Shown here piece after piece: positions 7,443-8,231 of a stretch of 64,000 bases of DNA. The notes under the pieces were generated by a model, which saw only the letters and a program-made list of their open reading frames with translations, was not told the DNA's origin and made no database searches. The translations under genes and the position numbers were made by a program. Position 1 is the stretch's first letter. The number at the start of each line of letters is the position of its first letter. The stretch spans positions 186,001-250,000 of the forward strand of contig JAGOPK010000003.1 in assembly GCA_017992055.1 (NCBI GenBank), in the 5' to 3' direction. Source of the stretch: Burkholderiaceae bacterium (GTDB lineage: Bacteria; Pseudomonadota; Gammaproteobacteria; Burkholderiales; Burkholderiaceae_C).

Positions 7443-7685
7443 ATGTCGCCCGTCAACATGCTGCAAGCCAAGACCACACTGTCCCGTTTGGTCGAGTCCA
7501 TCGAACTGGGGCAGGAGCGGGAGATCGTCATTGCGCGCAACGGGCGGCCGGTAGCCAAGCTGGTGCCCATCGATGTTCAGCCTGCTGGCAAGCGCATCGG
7601 CGTGGCCAAAGGCAAGTTCGTGGTGCCGGACGACATCGATGCGCACAACGAAGAAGTGGCACGCCTGTTCATTGGCGGCGCATGA
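7443..7685 (+). CDS. Phd/YefM-family antitoxin
   Basis: 80 residues. The N-terminal part is the Phd fold (VNMLQAKTTLSRLVESIELG, then EIVIARNGRPVAKLVPI), which binds DNA and represses its own operon. The C-terminal tail (VPDDIDAHNEEVARLFIGG) is the acidic, usually disordered, toxin-wrapping segment. It overlaps the PIN toxin gene by four bases (ATGA), the standard arrangement for this module. The two genes have somewhat lower GC than their neighbours, consistent with acquisition. Confidence 0.92.
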   Translation: MSPVNMLQAKTTLSRLVESIELGQEREIVIARNGRPVAKLVPIDVQPAGKRIGVAKGKFVVPDDIDAHNEEVARLFIGGA

Positions 7686-8068
7686 ACCTGTTGCTGGATA
7701 CGCATGTGGCGCTGTGGGCCATCAGCGACAGTCCCAGATTGCCTCCCAAGGCGCGCGAGTTGCTGGTCTCTGCCAAGACGACGGTCTGGGTCAGCGCCGC
7801 CTCGGTTTGGGAGATCGCCATCAAGCATGGGCTTGGACGCGGTGACATGCCGGTTTCTGCCCAGGATGCCTTGCGCTACTTCCAGGACTCCGGCTATCGC
7901 ATCTTGGCCATCGAAGCGGAGCACGCCGCGGCGGTCGAGCAACTGCCGTCGCATCACAGTGACCCGTTTGACCGAATCCTGATCGCCCAGGCATTGGTTG
8001 AGCCCATGCGCCTGATGACGCACGACACGCTCGTGGCGCGTTACAGCGACACGATCATCGAGATCTGA
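7682..8068 (+). CDS. PIN-domain ribonuclease toxin (VapC-like)
   Basis: 128 residues, the usual PIN toxin size. The acidic metal-binding residues are all visible: Asp in LLLDTHVALW (6), Glu in ASVWEIAIK (about 44), Asp in HHSDPFDRILIAQAL (about 97) and Asp in MTHDTLVARY (about 117). PIN toxins cleave RNA, often tRNA, when the antitoxin is degraded. The pair with an upstream Phd-type antitoxin belongs to the Phd/PIN type II class. The stop lies 10 bases from the stop of an oppositely oriented small ORF. Confidence 0.92.
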   Translation: MNLLLDTHVALWAISDSPRLPPKARELLVSAKTTVWVSAASVWEIAIKHGLGRGDMPVSAQDALRYFQDSGYRILAIEAEHAAAVEQLPSHHSDPFDRILIAQALVEPMRLMTHDTLVARYSDTIIEI

Positions 8069-8078
8069 AGCAAGGGTT

Positions 8079-8171
8079 TCAGAACCACAGCCAGATGCGG
8101 CGCAGCCATTGCGGCGTGCGGTCGGGCTGGGTCGGGTAGACGTGGCGGCCGATGTGTTGGCTGACATGCAT
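8079..8171 (-). CDS. 30-residue small ORF behind an SOS (LexA) promoter
   Basis: ATG at 8171, with AGGAGA ending about nine bases upstream and a LexA-overlapped promoter at 8203-8231, supports translation. The peptide is basic (four Arg, four His, one Asp), with a Pro-rich middle and a C-terminal aromatic cationic segment PQWLRRIWLWF (20-30). It has no signal peptide or full transmembrane helix, but that tail could lie on a membrane surface. It resembles SOS-induced small toxins such as TisB only in size and regulation, not in sequence. Function unknown; it could also be a short leader on a regulatory RNA. It ends convergently with the PIN toxin gene. Confidence 0.6.
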   Translation of the reverse strand: MHVSQHIGRHVYPTQPDRTPQWLRRIWLWF

Positions 8172-8202
8172 CACGGGCTTCTCCTGCTGGGTGCTTGAGG
8201 TG

Positions 8203-8231
8203 ACTGTATTTGCATACAGTACTTTCTGCAA
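8203..8231 (-). promoter_or_regulatory. SOS promoter: LexA box overlapping -35/-10 of the small ORF
   Basis: The box CTGTATTTGCATACAG (8204-8219) matches the CTGT-N8-ACAG LexA consensus of enterics and most beta/gammaproteobacteria, and extends to ACTG...CAGT on both sides. Reading leftwards, TTGCAG (8226-8231) and TACAGT (8203-8208) are a -35 and -10 with a 17-base spacer, so LexA would cover the spacer and -10. Predicted transcription starts about 24 bases before the ATG at 8171. Confidence 0.8.

Follow-up and report, generated by a model that had tools for sequence, protein, structure and literature searches.

A putative LexA-controlled family of very short peptide genes in one family of Burkholderiales

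The minus strand of the window, which is the whole 64,000-nucleotide stretch of Burkholderiaceae DNA that was analysed, carries an open reading frame for a peptide of 30 residues that is, with little room for doubt, a real gene under predicted LexA control. The peptide belongs to a family that appears to be new and whose range, in the genomes compared, is so far one family of Burkholderiales. The best explanation of the whole chain is a LexA-repressed SOS peptide that docks on the membrane and delays division, a reading that may be right but to which we give rather less than an even chance. With this peptide, and with a second small gene named orf1 here, the SOS response of one group of environmental bacteria would gain one gene family, or two, with no convincing Pfam or NCBIfam match. 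No description of the peptide family was found in the PMC literature (subscription literature lay outside the scope), and four sequence strings of the family, one of them from a blend, occur in no PMC paper searched.

The peptide gene and its promoter

The minus-strand ORF 8171-8079 is translated as MHVSQHIGRHVYPTQPDRTPQWLRRIWLWF, with its stop codon at 8081-8079 and a C-terminal end that reads PQWLRRIWLWF (Table 1). An alternative GTG start lies at 8174-8172, immediately 5′ of the ATG. An earlier note, made from the letters of the window, had pointed out this leftward ORF and its AGGAGA Shine-Dalgarno sequence, both of which are present as described. Among the 53 named loci introduced below, 51 of the 52 that were scored have at least four of six matches to AGGAGG before the peptide start, the choice of start codon having been partly guided by this same match.

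The palindrome CTGTATTTGCATACAG at 8204-8219 is the sole perfect CTGT-N8-ACAG in the window. The same note had placed it over the spacer and -10 of a promoter, and a TTGCAG-17 nt-TACAGT arrangement overlapped by the box can indeed be read from the sequence; a consensus promoter scanner, which demands a closer fit to TATAAT, flagged no promoter here. Chance alone would give about one perfect box per window (mean 0.81, and at least one in 56 of 100 shuffles), a figure that speaks for a chance ORF preceded by a chance palindrome, or else for a non-coding SOS RNA. Taken alone, the box and ORF of the window are weak evidence, and it is conservation that lifts the box above chance: box, promoter, frame and C-terminus are kept in dozens of species and synonymous changes prevail, which makes both of these explanations extremely improbable.

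Table 1. Coordinates of the features discussed (window positions unless a locus is named).
Feature	Position	Strand	Remarks
30-residue SOS peptide gene	8079..8171	minus	ATG start; homologues and codon pattern
Shine-Dalgarno AGGAGA	8180..8185	minus	8 nt 5′ of the peptide ATG
-10-like TACAGT	8203..8208	minus	overlaps the LexA box; spacer of 17 nt to TTGCAG
LexA box CTGTATGCAAATACAG (minus-strand reading)	8204..8219		perfect CTGT-N8-ACAG; single box in the window
-35-like TTGCAG	8226..8231	minus	TTGC kept at the same place in relatives
PhdYefM antitoxin (PF02604) and PIN toxin (PF01850), overlapping genes	7443-8068	plus	domain matches
orf1, example in L033	L033:1192-1401
orf1, example in L080	L080:~1298-1498
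orf1, example in L082	L082:~1492-1686

LexA and its motif in the genome of the window

The genome to which the window belongs encodes a LexA protein (TIGR00498, above cut-off) and has 14 perfect CTGT-N8-ACAG sites, compared with six for the reversed pattern. Its lexA promoter carries CTGGATGAAAATACAG and CTGGATGGATTCTCAG, 19 bp apart and of the same general form as the peptide box. Since LexA is present and the lexA sites share this form, the motif is likely to be live in this genome, with CTGG forms in use. Four of the 13 other perfect boxes precede genes which we take to be recA, imuA, an integron integrase and a splB-like radical SAM gene. The box before the gene read as an integron integrase is CTGTGTTTGCATACAG (L018; C15:89661-89676 of the genome), so an integron under SOS control is probably present elsewhere in the genome, beyond the window. 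Another LexA box, the near-consensus CTGTATAAATGTACAG (L020; C22:1498-1513 of the same genome), lies near an ORF read as glyoxalase/VOC-type, for which there is no obvious SOS role. SOS control of integron integrases is the topic of one published study (PMC3108266), and SOS control of splB has been proposed in another (PMC3323433).

Conservation of LexA control

A degenerate DNA pattern blind to the box (R-Q-x-Y-[QR]-P-x3-R-x-P-x-W, then W six residues on) identified the peptide at 53 places in named genomes. A perfect CTGT-N8-ACAG lies within 170 bp upstream in 46 of these 53 loci, against 126 of 95,218 control windows (0.13%) drawn from the same loci, and the relaxed form CTG-N10-CAG lies within that distance in all 53, against 5,049 of the 95,218 (5.3%). 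Among 20 further, more divergent members, fetched from the 28 family matches then without a locus, the box is found in 19 (18 perfect, one relaxed) and is absent in one (L205); L195 in this divergent set duplicates L099 of the 53. Conservation of box and ORF in relatives, the point on which the claim of SOS control had been staked beforehand, thus held in the pattern-derived loci and in the divergent set. An alignment of 52 loci anchored at the box (without L115, where the relaxed box ends otherwise than in ACAG) shows TTGC at -12 and TACAGT at +11 as prominent columns, i.e. a promoter with a 17-nt spacer covered by the box. A tandem arrangement is seen in 23 of the 53 loci, where a second CTG-N10-CAG lies 16-19 bp upstream of the first, at exactly 18 bp in 20 of the 23, and covers the -35. 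The median distance from box to start codon is 24 nt (n=51). No box lies directly 5′ of the peptide in L033 and L080; in these loci orf1 comes first, and it is orf1 that the box precedes, as a perfect copy in L080 and as the relaxed form CTGGATGGGCATACAG in L033. Together, the box over the promoter, its conservation before homologues and the presence of LexA and its motif in the genome support predicted membership of the peptide gene in the LexA regulon, and the SOS control proposed at the outset is upheld as far as sequence can take it.

The peptide family and its range

Homologues in the genus and in the family have in common the signature R-Q-x-Y-[RQ]-P...R-x-P-x-W-L-R-R-[ILV]-W-x-W-[FL]-stop. 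The statistics on the peptide cover 86 of 88 loci, the two excluded being L083 (Ideonella) and L086, one of the 53, whose frame extends beyond the usual W-x-W end. In 69 distinct stretches of 22 codons, compared in 996 close, non-independent pairs, differences at codon positions 1/2/3 number 5407/3961/7734 and pN/pS is 0.47, and in three Rhizobacter genomes the 22 residues are identical, with changes at third positions only (0/0/6 and 0/0/5). Four residues, R, Y, P and W, are invariant in all 69 distinct copies; the penultimate W is kept in 68 of the 69, with one residue (F in 38, L in 28, C in 3) before the stop. These codon changes fit a translated gene and, with the homologues, they support the view of the earlier note that the ORF is a real short coding gene. 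The length of 66 distinct peptides ranges from 27 to 40 residues and is mostly 27-28, the copy in the window having 30.

Within the genus, 9 of 21 genomes contain a homologue (E≤1.6e-10); within the family, 57 of 399 genomes, from 24 of 141 genera, do so (E≤1e-5). In an order-wide sample of 399 genomes, good matches came from two genomes only, that of the window and that of another member of the family; three further partial matches (E 1.6e-4 to 8.3e-4), two of which have no CTG-N10-CAG nearby, were set aside as weak. The box-plus-peptide pattern was found in none of 79 genomes across the order, 77 of them outside the family, a loose bound on the range, as this pattern misses the window's own copy and hits 81 of 212 fetched loci, some of which lack the peptide. 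In the samples searched, neither the peptide profile nor this pattern gave a convincing match outside the window's family. The genera among the 53 loci, where given, are Rubrivivax, Rhizobacter, Piscinibacter, Azohydromonas, Aquabacterium and Albitalea, and the remaining loci are titled solely Burkholderiaceae, Burkholderiales, beta proteobacteria or more broadly. The non-pathogenic species Rubrivivax gelatinosus has the gene at L110 and L134. Aquabacterium terrae is currently named Pseudaquabacterium terrae by NCBI and placed in Sphaerotilaceae. The 53 loci are partly redundant: L089 and L125 share a MAG, and no fewer than four others (L092, L094, L101 and L112) apparently also lie within the genome samples searched. 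Two copies of the peptide gene on separate contigs of one genome are seen in that MAG (L089/L125) and in another genome (G290:C1/G290:C5).

A weak match (E 8, 44% identity) in Ideonella dechloratans NZ_CP088082.1 reads MKYQYCDFYSVKPHRTVEWLRRLMLWF-stop and sits behind the perfect box CTGTATCTCCATACAG; because of this preceding box it was counted among the divergent members. The gene table, itself incomplete, has no entry at this place, one checkable case that agrees with the earlier remark that such ORFs are missed in annotation. More generally, a LexA box can guide the search for genes of this shortness. The Ideonella copy is also the one real plasmid case of the gene, two other matches, one in Aureimonas and one in Streptomyces, being due to chance. 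A phage or plasmid origin as a rule was rejected: two exact patterns had no match in viral contigs, and none was found in phages.

The peptide has no convincing match to any Pfam or NCBIfam family. Weak matches that were set aside are those to Mso1_Sec1_bdg (Pfam; 13 of 66 peptides, best E 0.006, with 13.3 bits for one member against a cut-off of 29.1), PutA_1st (Pfam; one of 66, E 0.055, 13.4 bits against a cut-off of 27), FAM209 (E 0.15), phrog_30075 (five of 66, best E 0.0027) and phrog_38739 (one of 66, E 0.074). The internal stretch RFVYRPRPDGAPRWLANL of a protein of about 290 residues in L045 and L046, presumably of the YfiH/PgeF type, resembles the signature over its first two thirds, probably by chance. 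Kinship with that protein was rejected, the likeness being partial, within a long protein, and the W-x-W end being absent.

Genomic neighbourhood and orf1

The overlapping PhdYefM and PIN genes converge on the peptide gene in the window, and an AMP-binding gene of the acyl-CoA synthetase type lies upstream of the peptide on the same strand. The earlier note had given prominence to the position next to a toxin-antitoxin pair; the pair itself is real, as its two domain matches attest, and the link with the peptide did not stand, as the proximity is not conserved. In 52 other loci, no frame within 4 kb of the peptide matches the PIN gene, a comparison made with frames of at least 90 aa and thus above the size of the 80-aa antitoxin. 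A role of the pair was rejected on this ground. Among frames of that size within about 4 kb, the AMP-binding gene is the only neighbour that recurs, at the same place in L101 (same genus) and with similarity elsewhere in L130. Since the neighbours in the window rarely recur, the peptide gene lives in many contexts.

A second small gene, orf1, of about 60-75 aa and with the core YVWESRFGxMLIEVxxGxxYVNGQxVEP, adjoins the peptide gene on the same strand in 19 of 52 loci examined, a set from which L086 is left out. The two genes occur in both orders, orf1 coming first in L033, L080 and L159. Of 30 orf1 loci, 10 were unparsed and stand outside the counts, five were already among the 53, and L150, L162 and L175 repeat L033, L082 and L080, respectively; the 20 parsed loci comprise 12 with a peptide-like ORF close by, four with a perfect LexA box and no peptide, and four with neither. 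Matches to orf1 were found in 37 of 399 family genomes (E≤1e-4), with up to four in one genome (G105), and none in the window's genome. In what is apparently the same sample of 399 genomes, 20 contain both genes against 5.3 expected (Fisher p ~1e-9, uncorrected for kinship), 37 the peptide only and 17 orf1 only at cut-offs of 1e-5 and 1e-4, at which a divergent peptide may escape. No Pfam, NCBIfam or PADLOC family matched orf1 at E≤0.1; one of 23 members matched a PHROG (E 0.061), and nothing among PDB sequences fell below E 0.38. Judging from its sequence context, orf1 is almost certainly likewise under predicted LexA control, and it is frequently linked with the peptide.

Their adjacency on the same strand in either order would suit a toxin-antitoxin-like pair in which the peptide is the toxin and orf1 the antidote, both released by DNA damage. 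Such a pairing is improbable: 33 of the 52 peptide loci have no adjoining orf1, many genomes hold one gene without the other (subject to the same escape of divergent peptides), orf1 with a LexA box of its own stands alone in four of the 20 parsed loci, and the window's genome lacks it.

Proposed function

Sixty-six distinct peptides have a net charge of +3 to +7, a mean GRAVY of -0.87 and three Trp on average. Their best 19-residue hydropathy window averages -0.76 and reaches -0.04 at most, which leaves no membrane-spanning helix. The hydrophobic moment of the last ten residues (mean 0.62, about 1.1 sd above shuffles) is only suggestive of amphipathic character at the C-terminus, and an amphipathic tail lying in the plane of the membrane is possible.

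The proposed chain would run as follows. In undamaged cells, LexA would occupy one or two boxes covering the -10 (and, where the boxes are in tandem, also the -35) and keep the peptide gene tightly off; upon DNA damage, LexA would be cleaved and the peptide made at once from its short leader. The Trp/Arg tail PxWLRRIWxWF may then form an amphipathic helix on the inner face of the membrane, as the C-terminal tail of FtsA does, and the conserved RQxYRP...R part may act on a membrane-side target, with a temporary division block during DNA repair as the putative result, in bacteria whose genus shows no SulA. The SulA profile (PF03846) does not appear when the 66 peptides are compared with Pfam at E≤0.1, and it matched none of 21 genus genomes, two of which are 61 and 70% complete. 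Its two matches in the family lie in frames of 283 and 301 aa, presumably ImuA, and other genomes, too, have frames of 132-376 aa that it picks up, most of them taken as ImuA, so that this null is only as good as the profile.

As a single mechanism, a division block would be the likeliest outcome, itself a tentative choice and no more probable than a modulator of proteins of repair, replication or the SOS response; the present evidence does not separate the two. The peptide would, as such a modulator, target proteins of DNA repair or replication, or else LexA/RecA, in a DinI-like manner, its C-terminus docking on a protein and orf1 serving as partner. This equally tentative alternative draws on conservation up to the last residue (the four invariant residues and the W-x-W-[FL] end), which is commoner for contact with a protein than for action on lipid, and on the frequent pairing with orf1 described above; against it, the sequence comparisons tied the peptide convincingly to none of these proteins, and it points to no particular target. 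The tail resembles the clamp-binding hexapeptide motif only where a Gln stands before IWLWF, a position that is Arg in 60 and Gln in 5 of the 69 distinct copies; this motif was set aside since the required Gln is Arg in most copies. As for the division brake, the gene is too patchy in its occurrence, with 57 positive genomes among 399 of the family and nine among 21 of the genus, to be the general brake of the family.

A further, rather unlikely explanation is an SOS growth-arrest peptide that perturbs the inner membrane in-plane, with a TisB-like outcome and persister formation. The size class of TisB, SOS control, the cationic character and the Trp content would agree with it, and the tandem boxes suggest that leakiness is costly; the hydropathy values that leave no spanning helix, and the short distance from box to start, which leaves no long structured leader, speak against a TisB-like protein.

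On a wider reading, the membrane-docking division brake would form part of an SOS checkpoint module of Sphaerotilaceae, in which a 27-residue peptide that docks on the membrane by its C-terminus replaces SulA, is tuned by the co-regulated orf1 and moves with it about the genome in a free-standing LexA-controlled cassette, both genes being overlooked for their shortness. This wider proposal is speculative, and we consider it somewhat less probable than the division block itself.

Comparison with known systems

The C-terminal tail of E. coli FtsA is a membrane-targeting helix. Like the peptide, FtsA has a Trp/Arg/Lys amphipathic C-terminal tail with W-[IL]-[KR]-R-[IL]; in a single, post hoc comparison restricted to E. 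coli, the profile of the peptide tail gave it a higher score than 99.8% of shuffled versions of the FtsA tail and than 99.1% of 3,280 C-terminal 16-mers taken from the loci. The FtsA tail belongs to a protein of 420 residues, and the likeness is one of a short biased motif, not of homology.

TisB, a type I toxin of E. coli with 29 aa whose name is coupled with that of the antisense RNA IstR-1, shares its size, LexA control and cationic character with the peptide. The peptide differs in being polar and, judged by hydropathy, in having no spanning helix, and its leader is short; the absence of a membrane-spanning window agrees with the earlier impression that it is unlike TisB. In the tisB/istR-1 system, TisB is an amphipathic protein located in the inner membrane, according to a published account (PMC11449926). 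The hypothetical genes hypA and hypB were predicted to be under LexA in beta-Proteobacteria with several chromosomes and were reported from Burkholderia, Ralstonia, Cupriavidus and Variovorax, hypB in Burkholderia only (PMC3323433); their reported range differs from that of the peptide, which had no convincing match outside its own family in the samples searched.

SOS division inhibitors vary by lineage and include SulA, SidA, YneA, DivS and ChiZ, and SidA of Caulobacter is an inner-membrane protein that interacts with FtsW (PMC4211646). The peptide has no spanning segment, in which it differs from the 29-aa SidA on the basis of hydropathy. Like SidA, SulA, YneA, DivS, ChiZ and SosA, it is small and, by prediction, SOS-controlled. 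We know of no agent of SOS division inhibition in Burkholderiales without SulA, and the peptide is a concrete candidate for that part.
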